A stretch of DNA of 38,845 nt, from assembly GCA_016783555.1 (NCBI GenBank), contig JADHWH010000013.1, forward strand, positions 1 to 38,845, written 5' to 3'. Both the position numbers and the translations under genes were made by a program. Source of the stretch: Candidatus Omnitrophota bacterium (GTDB lineage: Bacteria > Omnitrophota > Gorgyraeia > JABMRJ01). Position 1 is the first letter of the stretch, and each line of letters starts with the position of its first letter. Shown here in pieces: positions 1-16,291 of the stretch. Below the pieces are notes generated by a model. It saw nothing but the letters and a program-made list of their open reading frames with translations. It searched no databases and was not told the DNA's origin.

Positions 1-183
1 CCTGGCCTACAGGTAGAGTATGAGAATGAGCAAATCTTTAAAATTATGTGAAGATTAAAAAGAACTGGTAAAAAATAACACGATAAACGAAGTATTGCAT
101 AAAAGATTGGTTAAAAAACGGTAATTTTTCAACAGTCTCTTTTTAGGACGTCCCCAATTATTTAGAAGGTCGCCTACTGATTG
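1..183. other. No recognisable gene at the window edge
   Basis: AT-rich stretch with no open frame that I can tie to a protein, no RNA gene and no clear terminator. The only structure seen is a short GACGTCCCC-like patch near 148-156. It ends at the stop of the small membrane-protein ORF. Confidence 0.5.
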
Positions 184-374: not shown

Positions 375-391
375 TGGCGGAGAGGCAGGGA
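375..391 (-). repeat. 17-nt copy of the tRNA-Ser(GGA) 3' end (att-like)
   Basis: TGGCGGAGAGGCAGGGA here is identical to 1923-1939, the 3' terminal part (acceptor and CCA) of tRNA-Ser(GGA), and in the same orientation. The identity stops abruptly on both sides. A 17-nt exact match is not expected by chance in a window this size. Such direct repeats flank elements integrated at tRNA 3' ends; here they enclose the fic gene and palindromes. No integrase is present, so the integration reading is inference. Confidence 0.6.
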
Positions 392-458
392 CAGGGACTC
401 ATTTAGCTTCAAAACCGCCCTTTCACCACATCTCCCACCACACTCAAGTGTTATTCGT

Positions 459-522
459 CCCACCCCCGGGGTGGCGGCGCCGACATCGCCCGGGCGCAGG
501 GCGCCGACTCCCCGGGGGTGGG
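459..522. repeat. GC-rich palindromic element
   Basis: A 13-nt arm CCCACCCCCGGGG at 459-471 pairs perfectly with 510-522. The interior holds a second GC-rich pairing around CGGCGCC and GGCGCCG. It lacks a T-run and so does not look like an intrinsic terminator. It resembles dispersed intergenic palindromes; no second copy was seen in this window. Confidence 0.6.
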
Positions 523-544
523 CCTTGTTCTTCATATCACCGTC

Positions 545-620
545 ATTGCGAGCGCCGTCCGAGTGTTTTGTAGCGCACACTTTAGTGTGCGCTGAGTATA
601 TTTGGATGGCGCGAAGCAAT
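545..620. repeat. Dispersed inverted repeat (ATTGCGAGCGCC ... GGCGCGAAGCAAT)
   Basis: The ends ATTGCGAGCGCCGTCC and GGATGGCGCGAAGCAAT are imperfect inverted copies. Between them is a 9-bp hairpin (AGCGCACAC 572-580, loop TTTA, GTGTGCGCT 585-593). Elements with these ends are widespread in bacterial intergenic DNA, from general knowledge. It lies between the small membrane protein and the fic stop codon. Confidence 0.6.
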
Positions 621-663
621 CTCACTTAAACTGCTCCTTTACTTTGGAACGGGTGATCTTTTC

Positions 664-1782
664 TCATATTTCAGGAAAAATTAGTTCGTAAGATACGCTA
701 CGCCCTTTACTCTTGTGCCTGATCAATATCTTCTTTTTCAATAGATCAGTGATATCCCTATAGGCGGTAGCCCTGCTCACTTTTGTAATTGACACGTATT
801 TCCTTGTACTTAATCCTCCGATAAAGCCGCCCTTACCAGCATCTAACAGACGATTAATTACTTTCCGTTGGTTTTTATTTAAGATGGTCTGGGCATGTTT
901 CTGCCAAAACGCCGCCTTTTGTAATACTTTGGATATAGCGCCTTCAGAATAGTCTATTGCCCTACAGTAACATTCGAGGAACCACAATAACCATTCTGTG
1001 ATATTAAGTGAACCTTTTTGACATTTTTCTAGTATATTATAATATGCTTCTCGTTCCGCCATTATTCTGGCGGAAAGTGAATAATATCTTTTTGATAGAT
1101 TCTCGTCTTGAGCCAATGCCATGTCAGTTAACACCCTGGCTATACGGCCATTACCGTCTTCGAATGGATGTATCGTTACAAAATAAAAATGCGCTACGGC
1201 GGCCCTTAGCAATCCATCTAACTTCTTCGAGTCTTTCTCCCACCATTTTATAAAATTGCTCATTTCAGAGCTGACCATGGCAGCTGGAGGAGCTTCAAAA
1301 TGGACTTTCTGGCGTCCTACGGGCCCAGATACTACCTGCATCGCTCTGTCTCCACGCCACTTGCCGACTAAGATCTTTGACAATCCCGAGAAACCCGTAG
1401 GAAATAATGCTGCCTGCCATGACTTTAAACGTTTTGCTGTCAGCGTCTTTTTGTAATTATCTGTAGCGTTCAGCATGATATCGATTAAGCCATCTGCATT
1501 TTTATCCGTAGCCTTCAATCCAGGAATAGGCAGGCCCAGCTTCCTAGCAACTGATGATCGCACTGACTCCCTATCTAAACATTGCCCTTCAATAGCAGAC
1601 GTCTTGACCGCTTCTTCAATCAATATCTCAGACCTCGATTCTTCGCTGTGATCCAAGCCTAAAGACTGGACCTTACTAAGAAGCTTGCCTTGCAGAAACC
1701 TTGCCCTGCTCAGCTTATTAATCAATCGCTCACTCTGCCACCTGAAATGCGGCCACCCGCTTTGTTTCCAAATGTAGTTCAT
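664..1782 (-). CDS. Fic family protein (AMPylase-like) with C-terminal winged helix
   Basis: A 372-residue Fic/DOC protein. The catalytic motif HPFEDGNGR is at residues 205-213. Upstream, T61-SAI-E65-G66 fits the inhibitory [S/T]xxxE[G/N] motif, so the enzyme should be autoinhibited from its own N-terminal half. Residues 1-60 resemble the N-terminal domain often placed before Fic (DUF4172-like). Residues about 305-370 look like a winged-helix DNA-binding domain, which is common in this subclass. By family, it would transfer AMP or another nucleotide to a protein target; the target is unknown. A near-perfect promoter with a palindrome over the -10 suggests autoregulation. The gene lies between tRNA-Ser(GGA) and a copy of its 3' end, consistent with acquisition by transfer. 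Confidence 0.93.
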   Translation of the reverse strand: MNYIWKQSGWPHFRWQSERLINKLSRARFLQGKLLSKVQSLGLDHSEESRSEILIEEAVKTSAIEGQCLDRESVRSSVARKLGLPIPGLKATDKNADGLIDIMLNATDNYKKTLTAKRLKSWQAALFPTGFSGLSKILVGKWRGDRAMQVVSGPVGRQKVHFEAPPAAMVSSEMSNFIKWWEKDSKKLDGLLRAAVAHFYFVTIHPFEDGNGRIARVLTDMALAQDENLSKRYYSLSARIMAEREAYYNILEKCQKGSLNITEWLLWFLECYCRAIDYSEGAISKVLQKAAFWQKHAQTILNKNQRKVINRLLDAGKGGFIGGLSTRKYVSITKVSRATAYRDITDLLKKKILIRHKSKGRSVSYELIFPEI

Positions 1783-1815
1783 TTAGCACCTCAAATCGCT
1801 TCACATTCTGAAGCA

Positions 1816-1844
1816 ATTATATCATATATTCGCTTCGCTGTCAA
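1816..1844 (-). promoter_or_regulatory. Consensus sigma70-type promoter of fic with operator-like palindrome
   Basis: On the minus strand TTGACA (1844-1839), a 17-nt spacer and TATAAT (1821-1816). The predicted start of transcription leaves a leader of about 27 nt with GAGGTG before the fic ATG. An imperfect palindrome GAAGC(A/G)AATTATAT... to GCTTC covers the -10 and spacer, and GCTTC occurs again just downstream. This is a plausible binding site for the Fic C-terminal winged helix (inference). Confidence 0.8.
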
Positions 1845-1922
1845 GGGCTTAATTTAAATAATTAGGTGTGTGCTGGGAATGAGTACTTTTTCATAACTAA
1901 TTATAAACAAACGAGTTAGGTA

Positions 1923-2013
1923 TGGCGGAGAGGCAGGGATTTGAACCCTGGAGACCTCATCGGTCTACGCGCTTTCCAAGCGCGCGCACTCAACCGGGCT
2001 ATGCGACCTCTCC
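1923..2013 (-). tRNA. tRNA-Ser(GGA)
   Basis: Acceptor GGAGAGG (2013-2007) pairs with CCTCTCC, followed by discriminator G and an encoded CCA (1925-1923). The anticodon stem CGCGC/GCGCG encloses loop TTGGAAA, giving anticodon GGA. The long variable arm (91 nt in total) is as expected for serine. It lies 20 nt below the stop of the 217-residue protein gene and may be cotranscribed with it. Its 3' end is the likely integration target for the fic islet. Confidence 0.95.
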
Positions 2014-2032
2014 GTGTATTAAGACTTATATA

Positions 2033-2686
2033 TCAAGTGACTTCTGATTCAACCTTGGAAATAAGGCTCTCCAGATCTTTTGTAATCTGCGCGGAAAGCA
2101 GCTTTGTTGTCTTAAGCTCCGTCTTTATGGACCGCAGGGTGCTCAGGAAACGTTTTAAGACCGTTATACGCTTCTTTCGCCATGCCTCTTCCGGCTCAAG
2201 CTCTTCTCTCTGTTTTATAAGCGTGGTTATGTCTCTCTTCGTCTCGCGGGCATCCTTTCCCAGCTCGAGCACATCTTTTCTTATGCGGCTGTAGTCTTCT
2301 CTATCGAGTTCTTTCTTTCTGCTGGCAAGCCTTAAGACATCTACGGACTCAAGTGTCGGCACACTGGCCGGCTGGCTTTCACCGGTATACTCTTTGTCGA
2401 CGTATCTCGGCTCTTCTCTCTCGAGAAAATAGTAGGACTTAATCAGTTTAAGCGCCGTGGCCTTTCGTATGCCTATCTCTTTCGCGGCATATATCTCGAA
2501 TTTACCGTAGCCCCATTCCTTATATAATTTATCTTTCCATACCGAATACAAAGCCTGCCCTAGATCTATCCATGAAGTCTTAAAATTCCTGGCGTTTTGT
2601 AGAATGCGGTATCTAAGCGTATCGGGCTCTATGTTATCCATCCTCTTTTCTATACTTTCGATTGTCTTTGTCTTTGTAACTGCCAT
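2033..2686 (-). CDS. Uncharacterised 217-residue HTH-like, coiled-coil protein
   Basis: I do not recognise a named family. Residues about 1-95 are a compact N-terminal part with a possible helix-turn-helix (YAAKEIGIRKATALKLIKSY). It is followed by a linker with PRYVD and then a charged helical region (about 125-217, many K/E/R) likely to form a coiled coil. There is no signal peptide or membrane segment. AAGGAG lies about 7 nt before the ATG. It sits between lepB (15-nt gap) and tRNA-Ser(GGA), so a DNA-binding or nucleoid role is possible but not shown. Confidence 0.8.
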   Translation of the reverse strand: MAVTKTKTIESIEKRMDNIEPDTLRYRILQNARNFKTSWIDLGQALYSVWKDKLYKEWGYGKFEIYAAKEIGIRKATALKLIKSYYFLEREEPRYVDKEYTGESQPASVPTLESVDVLRLASRKKELDREDYSRIRKDVLELGKDARETKRDITTLIKQREELEPEEAWRKKRITVLKRFLSTLRSIKTELKTTKLLSAQITKDLESLISKVESEVT

Positions 2687-2701
2687 CGTTAAACTCCTTT
2701 G

Positions 2702-3253
2702 TTACTTAAATAAAAACAGCCTGTCCGGGGCGAGTTTGCCTTTTATGTCGCTCTTCTCAACAAAGCCGAAATGCCTTGAGTCGTAACTATTTTCTCTATT
2801 ATCCCCCATGACAAAATACATATCTTTAAGCACCATCAGGGGGCCTATATCCGGAAAGGTCCTTGTTTTCACATAAGGTTCTTGCAGTAATTCGCGGTTT
2901 AGATAGACTCTTCCTGCCTTTATCTGGAGAATATCTCCGGGAATCCCGATAACGCGCTTAATCAATTCATCCTTTTTTAATTTTATATCTCTTATTATCA
3001 CCACGTCTTTGCGCCTGGGTTTCGCGAAATTATATATGAATTTATTCACGAGATAATACTCCCCTTCTTTACAGGTAGGGTACATGCTCGGGCCTTGGAT
3101 TACCTCCAGGTTTAAAACAAATGTCTTGGTCGCATAAGTGAATATAATACCCCAGAAGATGATAAATAGCATCAATCTGGTCTTTCTCCTCTCGCGGGGT
3201 ATATACTTCTTATCGAATAACTTTCTTCTCTTAAACTTTTTTTCCTGTGTCAT
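2702..3253 (-). CDS. lepB: Signal peptidase I
   Basis: Membrane serine protease that removes signal peptides from exported proteins. The start at MTQEKKFKRR is chosen because the longer frame runs into tRNA-Ser(TGA). A basic N-terminus precedes one transmembrane segment (about 27-48). The catalytic pair is visible: Ser56 in QGPSMYPT and Lys99 in DELIKRVIGIPGD. The later box MGDNRENSYDSRHFG is also present. At 183 residues it is a short, single-anchor form. The ATG is 12 nt below the tRNA-Ser(TGA) 3' end, so it may share that transcript. The substrates would include the exported Skp, BamA and TPR proteins of this window. Confidence 0.95.
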   Translation of the reverse strand: MTQEKKFKRRKLFDKKYIPRERRKTRLMLFIIFWGIIFTYATKTFVLNLEVIQGPSMYPTCKEGEYYLVNKFIYNFAKPRRKDVVIIRDIKLKKDELIKRVIGIPGDILQIKAGRVYLNRELLQEPYVKTRTFPDIGPLMVLKDMYFVMGDNRENSYDSRHFGFVEKSDIKGKLAPDRLFLFK

Positions 3254-3265
3254 AATGATAAAGAC

Positions 3266-3353
3266 TGGCGGAGGAGGTAGGATTCGAACCCACGGTACCC
3301 GAAGGTACAACGGTTTTCAAGACCGCCGCTTTAGTCCACTCAGCCACTCCTCC
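3266..3353 (-). tRNA. tRNA-Ser(TGA)
   Basis: Acceptor GGAGGAG pairs with CTCCTCC, then G and an encoded CCA at 3268-3266. Anticodon loop CTTGAAA between GCGGT and ACCGT gives TGA. An 88-nt gene with a long variable arm, as expected for serine. The first 36 nt of the gene are duplicated 129 nt upstream. The gene is near serS and a second serine tRNA. Confidence 0.95.
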
Positions 3354-3446
3354 ATATACATTCGTAACGGTTTTTCCCGCCTCGCCTGGAGTTTCCTCCT
3401 CTCGGCGGGATCCCGTCTCGCCCTTGTTTACCCAGGCGAAACGGGA

Positions 3447-3482
3447 CAAGACCGCCGCTTTCGTCCACTCAGCCACTCCTCC
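3447..3482 (-). pseudogene. Partial tRNA-Ser copy (5' half only)
   Basis: The 38 nt at 3447-3484 match 3318-3355 with a single mismatch. They cover the tRNA-Ser(TGA) 5' end, D-arm and 5' anticodon strand plus two flanking bases. The match ends at the anticodon; beyond it there is no ACCGT partner strand, variable arm or T-arm, so no tRNA can form. Between copy and gene is a stretch with inverted motifs (CCCGTCTCGCC and GGCGAAACGGG). This looks like a decayed tandem duplication or a scar of recombination at the tRNA. Confidence 0.75.
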
Positions 3483-3498
3483 ATTAATATCGAGCGCT

Positions 3499-4167
3499 TT
3501 ACAAAAAGAACAGCTGTTTAAAAATACTTGTGTATATACTCTTTGACTTAAGATAGGTGCTGTAGAAAAAGTTCTCGAATGTTACGCCCTCAAAGAGTAT
3601 GCACACCAAAAAGGCGACTAAAAGCAGATTGATTATATATATCGTCACCAATGAAAAGAGATACCCCGTCTGTAAGATATCGGGCTGCTGCACTTTTAAG
3701 ACCTCGGCGGTAAATATAAGGTGCAGGCTTAAAGTAAAACCGGCTGAGAAGAGATATACATTCTTCAGGTTGGGGATATCAAAAAAGAAGGGGATTACAA
3801 AATAGAGAAGCGAGATAATCAACGTATACGTCGGTACAAAATAAGGGCTCAAGTTTATAAAAAAATTGGACTTTGTGGTCCCTACCGATCCCCCTTCCTT
3901 GCTTACATTGAATGATTTCACGCCCCCGCCGGTCATCCATGTGGCGAATACGTGCATTAATTCATGTCCTACCGTATATAGATATCTGGGCTTATGTAAA
4001 AAAAGGTGTAATACCACGTAAGAGACCACCCCCCACAGGAATATGCGCGAGCCGGCGCTGCGCGCTCCGCCTATGCCGGTTAGATTTTCAAAGAACGCTA
4101 TGGTGATGCCGATAACTATGGGTATAAGTATAAGACCTATTATAAACTTCGATATTCTGCCTAACAT
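3499..4167 (-). CDS. Polytopic membrane protein with HELMH metalloprotease-like motif
   Basis: A 222-residue protein from the ATG at 4167 (MLGRISKFII); a GTG at 4197 would add ten residues and is less likely because that segment lies next to a dispersed palindrome. Several hydrophobic segments are visible (about 7-27, 43-60, 108-130, 135-160 and 180-200). HELMH at residues 68-72 fits the HExxH zinc motif within a GHELMHVFATW context, as in intramembrane M50-like proteases, and NLSPYFVPTY follows at about 105. A third metal ligand is not evident. Protease activity is therefore inferred, not shown. It follows serS on the same strand. Confidence 0.75.
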   Translation of the reverse strand: MLGRISKFIIGLILIPIVIGITIAFFENLTGIGGARSAGSRIFLWGVVSYVVLHLFLHKPRYLYTVGHELMHVFATWMTGGGVKSFNVSKEGGSVGTTKSNFFINLSPYFVPTYTLIISLLYFVIPFFFDIPNLKNVYLFSAGFTLSLHLIFTAEVLKVQQPDILQTGYLFSLVTIYIINLLLVAFLVCILFEGVTFENFFYSTYLKSKSIYTSIFKQLFFL

Positions 4168-4202
4168 TTTATGGGTGGAATACTTATGCCCCCTCACCCT
4201 AA

Positions 4203-4229
4203 CCCTCTCCCCGCTTCGCGGGGAGAGGG
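4203..4229. repeat. Perfect 12-bp stem palindrome after serS
   Basis: CCCTCTCCCCGC (4203-4214), loop TTC, GCGGGGAGAGGG (4218-4229). It begins right after the serS stop codon. No T-run follows on the minus strand, so it is better read as a dispersed palindromic repeat that could act as a transcript-end stabiliser than as a classical terminator. Confidence 0.65.
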
Positions 4230-4232
4230 AAT

Positions 4233-5510
4233 CTAGGAGGGTTTTATTACATCTAGTGAATCCATGTATGGTCTAAGAGGCTCCGGGATAACTACGCTTC
4301 CGTCTTTCTCTTGATGGTTCTCTAAGATAGCCACTACAAGTCTCGCCAGCGCAACACCCGAACCGTTAAGCGTATGGACAAAAATTGTCTTTTTAGAACC
4401 TTTCGATCTATATTTTATGTTCGCGCGGCGCGCCTGAAAATCGGTAAAGTTAGAACAACTCGATACCTCAAGCCACGTATCGGTCCCCGGCGCCCAGAGC
4501 TCTATATCATAACATTTACTCGCGGCAAAACTCATATCCCCCGTCGAAAGCGCCGAGACTCTATAGGGAATCTCAAGAAGCTCTATTACCTTCTCCGCGT
4601 CTTTCAAAAGCTTCTCAAGCTCATCATATGAAGTCTCTGGCTTGACGAATTTCACAAGTTCGACCTTGTCGAATTGATGAACCCTCACTAATCCCCTCGT
4701 CTCTTTTCCGTATGAGCCCGCCTCTCTTCTAAAGCAGGCCGTATAAGCGGTATAATAAAGCGGCATCTCTTCTTCATCGAGGGTCTCATCCCTGTGCATA
4801 TTCGTTACAGGCACCTCCGCAGTCGGTATTAAGAATAAGTCATCGTCTTTAAGCCGGTACATATCCTCCTCTAATTTCGGAAGCTGCCCTGTCCCGGTCA
4901 TGGATGCCCTGTTTACCAGAAAGGGAGGAAAGACCTCGATATAATTATGCTTCTTTGTATGTAGATCCAGCATAAAATTTATAAGCGCCCTCTCAAGCCG
5001 CGCGCCCAGACCTTTATATAGGGCAAAGCCCGTTCCGGTAATCTTTGAGGCACGGCTAAAGTCCATGATACCCAAAAACTCAGATAACTCTATATGAGTC
5101 CTGGGCTTAAAGCTGAATTTTTTAATCTTACCCCATTTTTTTATTAGCTTATTGGATTTCTGATCAGGGCCTATGGGGACTGAAGAATGTGGTATATTTG
5201 GGATATTAAGTAACATTTGGTCTAAATTAGCGCTTATTTCCACCACTTTTGGGTCTAATTCTTTGATTTTTTGGGATGTTACCTTCATATCCGCTTTAAG
5301 CTTATTGGCATCTTTCTTTTCTCTTAACATTTTTCCTATCTCTTGCGATGCCTTGTTCCTCTCATGTTTGAGCGTCTCTGCTTCTATTAAGAGCTTCCTT
5401 CTTTCTGAGTCTAAAGAAAGGAGCTTCTCCAAATCAACTTTCATAGCCCTGTCGTTCAAAGACTTCGCTACGGCATCCGTATTTTCCCTTATAAATTTTA
5501 GATCGAGCAT
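4233..5510 (-). CDS. serS: Seryl-tRNA synthetase
   Basis: Charges tRNA-Ser with serine in the cytoplasm. At 425 residues it has the usual family length. Residues 1-105 form the long antiparallel coiled-coil arm that recognises the tRNA-Ser variable arm. The class II core includes TAEVP near residue 231, motif 2 FRREAGSYGKETRG and motif 3 LNGSGVALARLVVAILENHQ. The start MLDLKFIREN is typical. The gene lies 4 nt below the rtcB stop, in one operon with archease and rtcB, and close to two serine tRNA genes. Confidence 0.98.
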   Translation of the reverse strand: MLDLKFIRENTDAVAKSLNDRAMKVDLEKLLSLDSERRKLLIEAETLKHERNKASQEIGKMLREKKDANKLKADMKVTSQKIKELDPKVVEISANLDQMLLNIPNIPHSSVPIGPDQKSNKLIKKWGKIKKFSFKPRTHIELSEFLGIMDFSRASKITGTGFALYKGLGARLERALINFMLDLHTKKHNYIEVFPPFLVNRASMTGTGQLPKLEEDMYRLKDDDLFLIPTAEVPVTNMHRDETLDEEEMPLYYTAYTACFRREAGSYGKETRGLVRVHQFDKVELVKFVKPETSYDELEKLLKDAEKVIELLEIPYRVSALSTGDMSFAASKCYDIELWAPGTDTWLEVSSCSNFTDFQARRANIKYRSKGSKKTIFVHTLNGSGVALARLVVAILENHQEKDGSVVIPEPLRPYMDSLDVIKPS

Positions 5511-5514
5511 CTCT

Positions 5515-8484
5515 CTATCCTTTCACAACCCCCAGGGGTCGCATGCGACAGACTCTCTTTGATATACCGGCTTCATGGACAACATGGACCACATCGTTTA
5601 CATCCTTATAGGCCTCCGGCGCTTCTTCCGCCAATGTCCCCCGCCCTGCCGCCATAACCATAATGCCCTTCTGCTCCAACTCTCTCGATATGGACCGCCC
5701 CTGACATGCCTTTACGGCGGCGGTTCTGGACATAAGCCTGCCGCTTCCGTGGCAGGTCGAGAAGAAACTCTCCTCGGCCTTCTCTGTCCCGACAAGAAGG
5801 AAAGAATTCCTTCCCATGTCGCCCGGTATAATCACAGGCTGGCCGACAGATCTATATATCTCCGGTAATTCCGGGTGGCCCGGGGGAAAGGCCCGGGTCG
5901 CGCCTTTTCGGTGAATACATAAGAGCTTCTCTTCTCCATCGGTTACGCACTTCTCAATCTTGGCAATATTATGGGCGACGTCGTAAATAAGGTCCATCCC
6001 CAAATCTTTTTCGCCCCGCCTGAATATTTTTTCAAAGGTCTTTCTTACCAAATACATAAGACACTGCCTGTTTGCCCAGGCGTAATTTGCGGCGCATCTC
6101 ATGGCCCCTAAATATGCCTCTCCTTCTTCGGACTTTACAGGCGCGCATGCAAGCTGCCTATCCGGGACGCTGATATTATATTTACCAAGGCAGCGTATCA
6201 TGCTCTTCGAGTACTCATCGCAGATTTGATATCCAAATCCTCTTGAGCCGGAATGGATCATAATGGTAATCTTTCCCTCATACAAACCGAATACGGCCGC
6301 CGCCTCTTTATCGTAAATTTGATCTATTGCCTGAATCTCTACAAAGTGATTTCCTGAGCCGAGTGTGCCGGCCTGGCGTTTTCCTCTTTCGTACGCCCTG
6401 TCGGAAACCTTATCGGGGTCCGCGCCGTCGATAGCGCCGTTTTCTTCGGTTACTTCTAAATCTTCCTTTCTCCCGTAGCCCTTCTTTACCGCCCATCGCG
6501 CGCCCTGCACCAAAAGTTTTCTCTCTTCATCGACGCTTACCCTTATCTCTCCTTTTGAGCCGACACCGGCGGGAACATCGTTATAAAGCCCGTATACCAA
6601 ATCTTTTATTCTGGGTTGCGTCTCTTTGAAGGAGAGGTTTGTCCTTATCAGCCGCACCCCGCAGTTTATGTCAAAACCTACGCCGCCGGGTGAAATAACA
6701 CCGCCTGTTTCGATGTCAGTAGCGGCGACTCCGCCGATACAATTTGAGACAACAAAATTATTAGCAATAAAATTATGGTCTGAGTGCGAAACCGTAAAAT
6801 CATAGACAAAATCCTGGTAGGAAATTTCTTCTATTTTTTTAATCTTATCCCAAACCATTCCGCTCTGCCCAAGTCCTTTTGTAGCTTCTTTTAGATAATC
6901 TTTAAACAGAGGGAAATTTGCAGGAACTCGAGGAGAAATAAATTCTCTTCCTTTATTAAGTTTCCAGCAAACATCTATAATGAATCTTTTGCTTAGAGGG
7001 TTCCCTGCTAATTGAACGGCAATCTTTTGATAGCTTAATCTGCTTCTTAATAATTGAGGTATAGTTACTTTTATTGCCTGCTCCTTTTCTTTTAATATCT
7101 GCAGTTTTAATTTTAGATACTGTGTGGCTACATTGGCAATGAAAGACCTCTTAAAATTATATTCAAAACCAATTTTACTCCAGAGATTTAAGAGATTCTC
7201 CGGTCTTGGCGAAATTATTAGTTCCAATGCCCAAGAAATTTCTCCTTTCGTACTTATGTGCCTTCTTCTTTTATCAATATAAACGGTCCTTACCCCAAAT
7301 TCCTTTAGAAGTCTTGAAATGTCTCCCAAGAAATCCTTTCCATTTTTTATTAAAGCTTCTCTTTTAGCCATAGGGAATACCGGAGCATTAAAATAACCTT
7401 TTCTATCTATTCTCCTATGAGGCATCCTCAGTTCACATCCAAAAAGGGAAGCCAAAAATAGGCGTTTCTGCCAAAGGGGTGTTTTAAAAATCCATCTGGG
7501 AGCTCTATAGGCCTGTTTTACCTTGCTCCCTCTGGGGACGCCTAGTGTCTCCAGTAATACAACTAAACTGGAGGCATTAACATAGAACCAATAACAATCG
7601 TGATATTTATTTTTAAAATAGGGGCTTTTCTTTTTTTGATGATGAACCGGGCCTGCTGTATAACCGATCTTTTTCAAATCTTTTCTAACCTCTTCTAAAT
7701 CTTGCGGTTTTCCTGCAAAATGTAAAATTCCATCGCCTCTTTTGCCAATGAAATTCATAGAGGCGTCGCCAAAAACAAATGCCATTATCTTCAGTATGTA
7801 GGGTAACTTTGGATGATTATAGCTCAAAGTTAAAAGTCCGCGCTTTTTTAATTTTTGAAGTACTATTTCAAACTTAGGTGTATTGGGTCTCCGGCCCATT
7901 TTTAACATACGGTTCTTAACATGCTTTTCAGAGATAATTATTCCATCAGCAGGTCTTTTATAAGGGACGCCTTGAAATGGAAAGATTGCTATTTTGTCAT
8001 CAAAAGACAATTCTTTGATAGGCTTCATTCCTGTGGGGGTAAAAAAAGGATGGTCATCTGTTGTCTTAATTTCATAATTTTCTTTAGTGACTACTTTAAA
8101 GACCCTTTTTGGCTTTAGCTTCATGAATTTTAAGATTGATGCTTCAACTGGTTTTTTTGATTTAAAATCTAAGGTCTTAAGATTTTGATTTTGCCAATCT
8201 CTTTTAAAATTCTTGATCGGCTTATAAAATCCCAAATTAGATAATACTTTTGCATCTCTTGTTAGACAAAACCCATACCCCCAATGTATATCGGGCATAG
8301 CAAGTGAATATTTGACTATCCCCGGAAGGTGCGCGACATTCGTTACCTGTTCAAGCGCTTTATCGTGGAATAGATCTTTAAGCAGTTTTTCGTCGGCGTA
8401 AATCATCCCCGGGACACGCATGCCTTCTCTCTTGGGGAGGCGCCATCTGTAATCGTCGATCTTCTCCAGCTTCCCCTGCCACAT
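5515..8484 (-). CDS. rtcB: RtcB RNA-splicing ligase precursor containing an intein
   Basis: RtcB seals RNA with 2',3'-cyclic phosphate and 5'-OH ends using GTP and Mn, in tRNA splicing or RNA repair. The 989-residue ORF is a fusion: N-extein 1-72, intein 73-581, C-extein 582-989. The exteins sum to 480 residues, the usual RtcB length. Extein motifs include MPDIHWGYGF, CIGGVAATD (the Cys is the conserved metal ligand), LGSGNHFVEIQ, HSGSRGFGYQ, YDVAHNIAK, HRKGATRAFPPG and CHGSGRLMSR. The insertion is exactly before the metal-binding Cys, so the enzyme can only be active after splicing. Archease, its activator, is the next gene upstream (13-nt gap), and serS follows by 4 nt. Confidence 0.97.
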   Translation of the reverse strand: MWQGKLEKIDDYRWRLPKREGMRVPGMIYADEKLLKDLFHDKALEQVTNVAHLPGIVKYSLAMPDIHWGYGFCLTRDAKVLSNLGFYKPIKNFKRDWQNQNLKTLDFKSKKPVEASILKFMKLKPKRVFKVVTKENYEIKTTDDHPFFTPTGMKPIKELSFDDKIAIFPFQGVPYKRPADGIIISEKHVKNRMLKMGRRPNTPKFEIVLQKLKKRGLLTLSYNHPKLPYILKIMAFVFGDASMNFIGKRGDGILHFAGKPQDLEEVRKDLKKIGYTAGPVHHQKKKSPYFKNKYHDCYWFYVNASSLVVLLETLGVPRGSKVKQAYRAPRWIFKTPLWQKRLFLASLFGCELRMPHRRIDRKGYFNAPVFPMAKREALIKNGKDFLGDISRLLKEFGVRTVYIDKRRRHISTKGEISWALELIISPRPENLLNLWSKIGFEYNFKRSFIANVATQYLKLKLQILKEKEQAIKVTIPQLLRSRLSYQKIAVQLAGNPLSKRFIIDVCWKLNKGREFISPRVPANFPLFKDYLKEATKGLGQSGMVWDKIKKIEEISYQDFVYDFTVSHSDHNFIANNFVVSNCIGGVAATDIETGGVISPGGVGFDINCGVRLIRTNLSFKETQPRIKDLVYGLYNDVPAGVGSKGEIRVSVDEERKLLVQGARWAVKKGYGRKEDLEVTEENGAIDGADPDKVSDRAYERGKRQAGTLGSGNHFVEIQAIDQIYDKEAAAVFGLYEGKITIMIHSGSRGFGYQICDEYSKSMIRCLGKYNISVPDRQLACAPVKSEEGEAYLGAMRCAANYAWANRQCLMYLVRKTFEKIFRRGEKDLGMDLIYDVAHNIAKIEKCVTDGEEKLLCIHRKGATRAFPPGHPELPEIYRSVGQPVIIPGDMGRNSFLLVGTEKAEESFFSTCHGSGRLMSRTAAVKACQGRSISRELEQKGIMVMAAGRGTLAEEAPEAYKDVNDVVHVVHEAGISKRVCRMRPLGVVKG
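6742..8268 (-). mobile_element. Intein with LAGLIDADG-type homing endonuclease inside RtcB
   Basis: 509 residues, from Cys73 (block A, CLTRDAKVLS) to Asn581, followed by Cys582 as the +1 nucleophile. Block B is TTDDHPFFT (His145). The C-terminal blocks are YDFTVSHSDHNFIANNFVVSN. The penultimate residue is Ser where most inteins have His. The central region has two degenerate LAGLIDADG helices, IMAFVFGDAS near 233-242 and FLASLFGCE near 343-351, with acidic D240 and E351 in place, so endonuclease activity is possible. The segment looks clearly more AT-rich than the exteins, which fits recent horizontal arrival. RtcB inteins at this site are known from archaea such as Pyrococcus. Confidence 0.95.
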
Positions 8485-9814: not shown

Positions 9815-10534
9815 TCACCCCCTTACGACTGTTCCGATTTTTTCTCCCAATATTACTTTCTTAATATTGCCCACTTTCAGAAGATTAAAGACAATGAGCG
9901 GAAGATTGTTCTCCATGCATAGGCTTATCGCAGTAGCATCCATTACCTTCAGCCTCTTTTTTAGCACATCTAAATATTTTAAGTTTTTGAATCTCTTAGC
10001 GGATCTGTATCTTACGGGGTCTTTCGAGTATATGCCGTCTACCTTTGTGGCCTTAAGGACCACATCTGCGTCTATCTCCGCCGCCCTGAGGGCCGCCGCC
10101 GTATCGGTGGAAAAATAAGGATTACCTGTGCCGCACACAAATATTATCACGCGGCCCTTCTCCAGATGTCTTGTCGCCCTCCGCCTTATGTACGGTTCGG
10201 CTAACTGCCGCATCTCTATAGCACTAAGGACCCTTGTGACTACGCCGGCCTTCTCGAAGGCATCCTGCAGCGCAAGGCCGTTCATCACCGTCGCCAGCAT
10301 ACCCATATAGTCGCCGGTAGACCTGTCTATGCCATCAATCGTTCCGGAGGCGCCGCGATATATATTGCCCCCGCCTACGACAATAGCGATCTCCAGCCCC
10401 ATATCCTTTATCTCTTTTACCCGTTTCGCCATAGAGTGCACGACCTTAGAGTCTATTCCGCTTGGAAGGTTGCCCTGGAAGGCCTCGCCGCTGAGCTTCA
10501 GCACTATCCTTTTATAGACCGGTCTCTTCTTCAC
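9815..10534 (-). CDS. pyrH: Uridylate (UMP) kinase
   Basis: Makes UDP from UMP and ATP; a hexameric amino-acid-kinase-fold enzyme of pyrimidine synthesis. 239 residues. Motifs: [12 protein letters not shown] near the N-terminus, [45 protein letters not shown] and DGIYSKDP. The start is GTG at 10534, which overlaps the tsf end by 23 nt; the fit to family N-termini supports it. Such overlap suggests translational coupling to tsf. Confidence 0.97.
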
Positions 10535-15172: not shown

Positions 15173-16291
15173 ATGCCTAAAAAAATCCTGATAATCGCCG
15201 GTGAAGCCTCCGGAGATCTTTACGGCGCGCATCTCGTAAGCGCCATTAAAAAGAGAGATCCCAAGGCTGAATTTTTGGGTGTAGGCGGCGCCGAGATGAA
15301 AAAAGCCGGCGTCGATATTATATACCCCATAGATGAATTGGCGATAATAGGCTTCTTCGAGATATTCTCAAAAATAAAGATTATTAAGAATCTTTTTTTT
15401 CTCTTATCAGAAAAAATAAAGGAGCAGAATTTCGATCTGGCAATCCTGGTAAACTACCCGGGTTTCAATCTCAGCTTTGCCGGAGTGCTGAAAAAGAAGC
15501 GCATCCCCGTCGTATTCTATTCGAGCCCCCAGGTTTGGGCATGGGGAAAGTGGCGCTTGAGGCGGATAAAGAGATTTGTAGATAAGATGATAGTCCTCTT
15601 AAAATTTGAAGAGGAGTTCTACAAAAAACACGGCATAGACGCCGAATTCGTAGGTCATCCGTTAGTCGATATAGTAAAACCTGCCGGCAGCGCCCTGGGA
15701 ATAGAAAAAGATGAGCATACAAAAATCATCTCTCTTGTACCGGGGTCGCGAAAGAGCGAGATAAAAACTCTTTTTCCGACGATGTTAAAGGCGGCCGAAA
15801 GGATTCACCTTAAGCAGGGCGATGTCCGATTCTTGATTACAAAACATCCCCAGCTGCCTCTTGAAATCTACAAAGATGCCCTGGAAGGATACAGCCTCCC
15901 GCTTAAAATTGTCGACGGAAAAATCTATGACTGCCTTCACATCTCTGACCTTGCGGTGGTCGTCTCCGGGAGCGTCACGCTTGAGGCGACGATATTGAAA
16001 ACCCCCATGATAATAATAAACCGCCTGTCTCTTCTTACGGGGATTCTTTATCTTATCTTTGTGCGGCTGGCTAATGTAGGCCTTGTGAATATTATAGCGG
16101 GCAAGAGAATCATGCCGGAATTTCTTCAGTACAGCGCGACTGCCTGTAATATTGCGAATGAGGCCTTAAGCATCCTATCCGACGATAACAAATATAAAAA
16201 GATGAAAGAAGACCTTGAAACGCTAAACCACATCGTCGGGCCGCCCGGCGCGTCTGACCGCGCCGCCGCAATCATATCAAAGATTATATAA
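15173..16291 (+). CDS. lpxB: Lipid-A-disaccharide synthase
   Basis: GT19 glycosyltransferase that joins lipid X to UDP-diacylglucosamine to form the lipid A disaccharide at the inner membrane. 372 residues. Diagnostic: IIAGEASGDLYGAHL at the start, VNYPGFNL, YSSPQVWAWGKWRLRRIKRFVD and LVPGSRKSEI, with VSGSVTLEATIL near residue 265. It converges with lpxI; the two 3' ends overlap by 8 nt. Confidence 0.97.
   Translation: MPKKILIIAGEASGDLYGAHLVSAIKKRDPKAEFLGVGGAEMKKAGVDIIYPIDELAIIGFFEIFSKIKIIKNLFFLLSEKIKEQNFDLAILVNYPGFNLSFAGVLKKKRIPVVFYSSPQVWAWGKWRLRRIKRFVDKMIVLLKFEEEFYKKHGIDAEFVGHPLVDIVKPAGSALGIEKDEHTKIISLVPGSRKSEIKTLFPTMLKAAERIHLKQGDVRFLITKHPQLPLEIYKDALEGYSLPLKIVDGKIYDCLHISDLAVVVSGSVTLEATILKTPMIIINRLSLLTGILYLIFVRLANVGLVNIIAGKRIMPEFLQYSATACNIANEALSILSDDNKYKKMKEDLETLNHIVGPPGASDRAAAIISKII

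Follow-up and report, generated by a model that had tools for sequence, protein, structure and literature searches.

An integrase-less Fic islet at tRNA-Ser(GGA) as a probable member of a family of compact tRNA-Ser/tmRNA 3'-end elements in Omnitrophota

The Fic islet located at tRNA-Ser(GGA) in a Candidatus Omnitrophota bacterium very likely belongs, judging the explanation as a whole, to a family of compact Omnitrophota elements that insert at tRNA-Ser and tmRNA 3' ends; it carries a single gene and would be mobilised in trans. It is probably a CIME-like non-autonomous cassette of a tandem array: the islet has no integrase of its own, yet its end is common to integrase-carrying elements, which suggests that it is moved by the enzyme of another element. 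The analysed stretch of DNA (38,845 nucleotides, referred to as the window) forms one end of contig C1 in a 78-contig, 1.77-Mb genome (G000), and window position 1 is the contig end. The features of the islet and its surroundings are as follows.

1..139, + strand: IS-like repeat end (453-aa transposase-like ORF on contig C33)
375..391, - strand: second copy of the putative att core, distal islet boundary (17-nt direct repeat; placed like the distal copies of relatives)
408..420, - strand: conserved GGGCGGTTTTGAA adjoining the tandem repeats (alignment of ends; GTDB-wide pattern)
421..442, - strand: tandem direct repeat TGTGGTGGGAGA-TGTGGTGAAA of the right arm, resembling arm-type integrase sites (the cassettes of relatives have these repeats 65-78 bp from their distal end)
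459..522, - strand: GC-rich hairpin, 13 bp + 6 bp (otherwise only at two integrase loci, on G000 contigs C30 and C75)
664..1782, - strand: fic, 372-aa Fic protein with a DUF4172 N-terminus (PADLOC SoFic match)
1798..1814, - strand: operator-like palindrome GCTTCA-N5-TGAAGC, overlapping the start region of the fic promoter
1816..1844, - strand: consensus fic promoter, TTGACA (1839-1844)-17-TATAAT (1816-1821) (from the sequence)
1894..1918, - strand: inverted repeat TAACTCGTTTGTTTATAATTAGTTA, immediately inside the tRNA-proximal end; the left-arm repeat pair is absent there
1923..1939, - strand: putative att core TCCCTGCCTCTCCGCCA within the tRNA-Ser(GGA) 3' end, tRNA-proximal boundary (17-nt direct repeat)
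1923..2013, - strand: tRNA-Ser(GGA), intact, the presumed integration target (ARAGORN and Rfam)

A search of the window found TGGCGGAGAGGCAGGGA at 375-391 and 1923-1939, in the same orientation and with 0 mismatches. When up to 3 mismatches were allowed, these were the only two copies in the window, and two copies occurred in 0 of 100 dinucleotide shuffles; with up to 1 mismatch, the same two were the only copies in the entire 1.77-Mb genome. The recurrence of the last 17 nt of tRNA-Ser that the original prediction had reported is thus exact and unique in the genome. The islet proper, between the two cores, extends from about 392 to 1922 (~1.55 kb), and ORF and domain annotation identified fic as its only sizeable gene. 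The consensus promoter and two palindromes described as accompanying fic between the copies are all present (the operator-like sequence at 1798-1814 and the hairpin at 459-522). An integrase gene of its own is absent, as had been claimed, and the islet was therefore filed as non-autonomous; the direct repeat of the tRNA 3' end is present on the far side, and the tRNA is intact. The IS-like repeat of 1-139, which recurs where contigs C31 and C33 end, accounts for the contig break at position 1 and leaves ~235 bp of non-repeat flank beyond the distal copy. No excision, circular form or empty site was seen for the Fic islet, the window being a contig end.

Some other features of the window were recorded. 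Between the hairpin and fic, positions 541-640 carry a repeat of the GTCATTGCGAG...GCGAAGCAATCTC type, and 628-655 is nearly repeated, in the opposite orientation, behind an integrase gene on contig C75 (about 7424-7450 of locus L160). Just upstream of tRNA-Ser(TGA), with about 91 bp in between, the 5' half of this tRNA recurs over 38 nt at 97% identity (3318-3355 and 3447-3484), which looks like a separate small insertion or duplication. An RtcB-like ORF of 989 aa at 5515-8484, which has counterparts of 488 aa in G042 and 988 aa in G008, seems to contain an intein.

The 17-mer and a reversed control pattern were searched in 384 genomes of the class. The 17-mer was present in 103 of the 384 genomes. 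In 14 of these, a single contig had at least two copies within 20 kb of each other, invariably pointing the same way; the reversed control pattern of the tRNA-Ser tail gave 0 matches in the 384 genomes. Pairs just 0.2-0.3 kb apart (G117, G189 and G257) were left out of the locus analysis. According to locus annotation, most tail copies at the multi-copy loci were downstream of a tRNA-Ser. In G001, tRNA-Ser(GGA) is followed by elements of 7.1, 1.9 and about 1.3 kb, and in the single-contig genome G067 five tail copies stand in a row with four cassettes of 3.1, 1.1, 1.3 and 2.3 kb. Elements at tRNA-Ser were also found in G033 (6.6 and 1.4 kb), G042 (1.2 kb), G008 (1.8 kb) and G006 (8.2 kb), and a 7.4-kb element lies at tRNA-Ser(GCT) in G004. 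The 1.6-kb cassette of G107 shows the variant CTGCTTCTCCGCCA in both the tRNA and the copy, the copy having the CTGCTTC variant of its own tRNA; in G052, where the tRNA tail reads CCCAGCC..., a 1.1-kb cassette is bounded by that tail. Among the cargo are a DUF4143 ATPase with a match to a candidate defence model, BrnT/BrnA, pairs of NTP_transf_8 genes, periplasmic proteins, and an ArsR/thioredoxin/SBF-transporter set. Cargo genes are codirectional with the tRNA in the 13 cassettes listed, and the NTP_transf_8 pair and BrnT/BrnA occur at the same tRNA in different families.

G042 and G067, which belong to the same genus, were aligned at this locus. The tRNA-Ser (96%), an NTP_transf_8 cassette (89%) and the distal chromosomal flank (93%) are shared, but G067 carries two extra cassettes between the tRNA and the common cassette; behind the latter it has a further cassette and about 1.4 kb of other DNA. 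The alignment ends within one base of the CCA of the tRNA, and the breakpoints fall at tail copies. These comparisons show elements piled up in tandem at tRNA-Ser(GGA), with close relatives differing by whole cassettes. As for the islet itself, this fic was found at tRNA-Ser(GGA) in no relative examined, so it is not a gene that all relatives keep here with the same flanks, and the nearest relative, G001, has other cassettes at the site. Homologs of the neighbouring gene at 2033-2686, used for synteny, were found in 28 relatives, none of them near a tRNA-Ser.

The distal ends of the elements of relatives, when aligned, showed a common order of two tandem ~12-bp repeats, GGCnGTTTTGAA, about 16-20 nt, and the core. 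The tandem repeats read TGTGGTGgaaR-TGTGGTGAAA and, in family f8, TGGTGTTAAAA twice. The distal end of the Fic islet contains the tandem repeats, GGCnGTTTTGAA and the core, and the conserved end is present in the window, G001, G042, G067, G107, G004, G006, G029, G049 and others, including elements that encode a tyrosine integrase at tRNA-Ser and tmRNA. A sequence model of the end, built with the core/tail excluded, was searched over the 384 genomes of the class, with E below 1e-5 taken as strong; weak hits (E > 1e-4) were excluded except for G103_C98, which was marked probable. Eight strong hits lay outside the training set: six were followed within a few bases by a tRNA-Ser/tmRNA CCA tail, one had a truncated tail and one had no tail. 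Among about 85,000 GTDB species, the exact end pattern occurred at nine loci, comprising four in Omnitrophota, all with the tandem repeat and tail, and five outside Omnitrophota, with neither. A viral origin was rejected: the end pattern gave 0 matches in viral contigs, and the integrases there are only distant. Comparison of the ends identifies the 17-nt copies as putative att sites and the distal end (tandem repeats, GGCnGTTTTGAA and core) as a candidate conserved recombination site.

Integration at a tRNA 3' end, which the original prediction had proposed, is supported by the same-orientation tail copies in relatives, by the conserved end shared with integrase-encoding elements, and by the presence or absence of whole cassettes in two congeneric genomes with breakpoints at tail copies. 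It is very improbable that there is no element at all and that the tRNA 3' end was long ago duplicated or gene-converted around a fic gene already resident there. Although tRNA tails can be copied by recombination and, elsewhere in the class, orthologs of fic lie away from tRNAs, that reading does not sit well with a common element end, integrases beside such ends and the same arrangement with unrelated cargo, and it is disfavoured by the end-model hits with tails and by the G042/G067 cassette polymorphism.

Other element ends were noted in passing. In G103 (L256, contig C98, about 572-3130), tmRNA-type tails bound ArsR-like, thioredoxin-like and SBF-family transporter genes. A stray element end with the truncated tail TCCCTCCCTCTCCGC, near tRNA-Arg and tRNA-Ser(GCT) in G042 (L244, contig C30, reverse complement 15366-15422), is probably an old remnant. 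At an element end of G001 (L093, about 10322-10412), the core is interrupted by a GGCAGGCAGGCC-like insertion, and the boundary repeat is thereby broken.

The 3-8 kb elements encode a 363-372-aa tyrosine recombinase near the distal end, the carriers being G004, G006, G061, G029, G049 and four genomes of family f3; the G001 integrase is split into two frames. In most of them, including G004, G029, G049 and family f3, the conserved end follows directly after the integrase, and in G006 and G061 one extra gene lies between the two. These integrases are about 35-57% identical to one another and keep the HxxR and Y residues. The integrase family was found in 25 of the 384 class genomes. In G042, G008 and G033 cassettes are kept, yet no such integrase was found at the threshold used, which fits fixation of their cassettes.

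In integrase attachment regions such as those of the lambda and Tn916 systems, arm-type sites usually form pairs of repeats near both ends. The first element of G001 and the elements of G004 and G006 have the repeat pair at both ends (the left-arm match of G006 is weak), with the left pair about 150-160 bp inside the tRNA-proximal core and the right pair about 66 bp inside the distal end. Nine integrase-less mini-cassettes of 1.1-2.3 kb (the window, G001 c2, c3 and tmRNA, G042, G067 c2-c4 and G107) have the distal pair at 66-78 bp and no left pair, while in G067_c1 and G103_C98 both pairs are present and none of the genes found encodes an integrase. The left arm is thus confined to the integrase-bearing elements, G067_c1 and G103; no recognisable repeats were found at the element ends of G008, G033 and G061. 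Like the other eight mini-cassettes, the Fic islet lacks the left-arm pair, and having the distal pair only, it appears to possess a complete distal site without a left arm. The absence of the left-arm repeats of autonomous elements also means that it may no longer be excisable.

The same arm pattern bears on whether the islet is instead a fixed remnant, a decayed CIME that arose from one insertion followed by deletion of the integrase and left arm, and that is now immobile, with fic retained for being useful or addictive. Such a history is unlikely on balance, though a substantial possibility. The left arm and integrase are indeed absent from the Fic islet, G067_c1 and G103_C98 resemble intermediates with both arms and no integrase, and the core of the third G001 cassette is broken by an insertion. 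However, the left arm is missing from 9 of 9 mini-cassettes, and the distal repeats are retained with their spacing; the same end being spared in all nine makes random decay unlikely, and G042 and G067 differ in their cassettes. Between the degraded remnant and the satellite moved by another element that the original prediction had left side by side, the evidence therefore leans towards a non-autonomous, putatively mobile cassette over random decay.

A one-sided distal site on 9 of 9 mini-cassettes would also be expected of an integron-like system, in which each cassette carries a single 3' site, insertion takes place primarily at the tRNA gene, and cassettes are gained, lost and reordered by an integrase supplied in trans. 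This is rather doubtful, somewhat more so than a fixed remnant. In keeping with it, each cassette has one gene or a few, which in the 13 cassettes listed share the direction of the tRNA; the cassettes follow one another in tandem with differing content, and related cargo recurs at the same tRNA across families. Against it, no reshuffled order was seen between close strains, the cassettes have their own promoters, and the G004 integrase scores 22 bits against the integron-integrase model TIGR02249, for which the cut-off is 265. Membership among integrons proper was rejected on this score and on the insertion at a tRNA.

Returning to trans-mobilisation of an integrase-less cassette, a candidate helper was sought in the same genome. 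Contig C30 starts inside an integrase gene of which 163 aa are left, 63% identical to the C-terminal half of the G001 integrase. The GC-rich hairpin, repeats and GGGC.G.TTTGAA of the Fic islet recur immediately behind it, and then comes the tail TCTCGGCACCTCCACCA, which is the tmRNA 3' end (the G001 tmRNA predicted by ARAGORN ends in it). Assignment of this tail to tRNA-Leu was rejected, ARAGORN giving a tmRNA on L252. Behind the tmRNA of G001 lies an AbiEi/NTP_transf_8 cassette of 1.84 kb that has no integrase and shares this end. The integrase that the original prediction had suggested looking for was thus found in kind, with the same end module, but beside a tmRNA tail and not a tRNA-Ser tail. 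With such a tail at its end, the C30 integrase may not act on the tRNA-Ser core, and since the only such integrase found so far in this genome sits at tmRNA, the helper may be absent today; the C30 gene is, moreover, cut by the contig edge.

The GC-rich hairpin at 459-522 (z about -3.5 to -3.7) occurs at three places in the genome only: the Fic islet, C30, and behind another integrase on C75. Considered as a possible recombination structure, the hairpin shows two compensatory pairs and a few mismatches among its three copies. A dispersed REP-like repeat was rejected, as there are only three genomic places and all are element ends. The hairpin was not shown by the G001, G042 and G067 ends. At the C75 locus (L160, 6308-8091), a second, unrelated integrase is followed by the same hairpin and a possible tail, CCCATCGTCCCCGCCA.

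In the mechanism we envisage, a tyrosine integrase of the end-associated family would recognise the tandem repeats as arm-type sites, recombine the core within the T-arm/acceptor tail so that the tRNA is restored, and act in trans on enzyme-less cassettes in which the distal end is kept. The Fic protein would meanwhile be kept silent by its inhibitory helix and an autoregulated promoter.

Class II Fic proteins carry an N-terminal (S/T)xxxE(G/N) motif and HPFx(D/E)GN(G/K)R. The cargo protein, composed of DUF4172 and Fic domains, has the inhibitory motif TSAIEG at aa 61 and HPFEDGNGRIAR at aa 205, in agreement with the autoinhibited Fic originally proposed, and fits a predicted active, class II autoinhibited AMPylase. 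The PADLOC SoFic model matched residues 12-363 (E 1.5e-49), while the NCBIfam SoFic equivalog gave 66.7 bits against a cut-off of 550, and the closest solved structure, aligned over nearly the full length, is PDB 8CIL and not SoFic. The cargo is probably a SoFic-like AMPylating defence or toxin protein. The sequence TATAATTG-[CT][TA]TCA-N5-TGAAGCGATT, or a close variant, was found upstream of 5 of 7 fic orthologs at other loci, and the palindrome at 1798-1814, being kept there, is probably an operator, perhaps for the C-terminal domain of Fic itself. Elsewhere in the class, a different Fic gene lies 69 bp behind tRNA-Ser(GGA) in G024 of another family (L273, reverse complement 3358-4422), with no second tail copy, and in G052 (L275) a Fic gene lies 1.7 kb behind tRNA-Ser(GGA), beyond the 1.1-kb cassette. 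According to a published report, SoFic works through abortive infection and has a small antitoxin gene downstream (PMC12249575). The Fic islet resembles that anti-phage system in its single Fic protein and PADLOC match, and departs from it in missing the NCBIfam cut-off and in having 8CIL as its nearest structure.

The ssrA islands of Dehalococcoides lie in tandem behind the tmRNA 3' end; repeats of this end, about 20 bp long and adjoined by a conserved motif, bound them, and 15 islands without an integration module were suggested to be cis-mobilizable (PMC3146451). The Omnitrophota elements share the tandem arrangement, the RNA-gene 3'-end repeats, the motif beside the repeat and the members without integrase; they differ in using a tyrosine recombinase in place of a serine recombinase module, and tRNA-Ser as the main target (PMC3146451). 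Unlike those islands, the Omnitrophota cassettes can be as small as 1.1-2 kb with one or two genes, and one arm is consistently absent. CIMEs, described for ICESt1 relatives of Streptococcus thermophilus and as cited in PMC3146451, likewise have no integrase or transfer genes, are bounded by att sites, and are formed or moved by tandem accretion. By definition they keep attL and attR, whereas the Fic islet has both cores but no left arm, so its attL may be incomplete. Integron arrays and CALIN are similar in their short tandem cassettes, each with a 3' recombination site, and an integrase that is sometimes absent; the present cassettes differ in having no integron integrase, a site that is not attC, a tRNA-gene insertion point and their own promoters (PMC11389934).

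Given the Dehalococcoides precedent, the concept is already known (PMC3146451); what differs here is the tyrosine integrase, tRNA-Ser as the main target, the tiny cassettes of one or two genes and the fact that one arm is consistently missing. No description of such elements in Omnitrophota was found in the literature searched. These results provide a defined recombination end, a target and a candidate enzyme for small integrase-less islets of the kind usually dismissed as 'remnants', and the sequence model of the end can be used to find further such elements. The contrast between two-armed integrase elements and one-armed mini-cassettes allows a direct test of whether one end is sufficient for mobilisation in trans. 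If the integron-like reading were true, these loci would be a tRNA-anchored counterpart of integron cassettes, in which one 3' site is sufficient and the integrase comes from larger relatives, and Omnitrophota would hold changing arrays of defence, toxin-antitoxin and resistance genes at tRNA-Ser/tmRNA. As it stands, the family shows how genes for defence, toxin-antitoxin and arsenic-type functions can build up beside tRNA genes in a phylum that is mostly uncultured.
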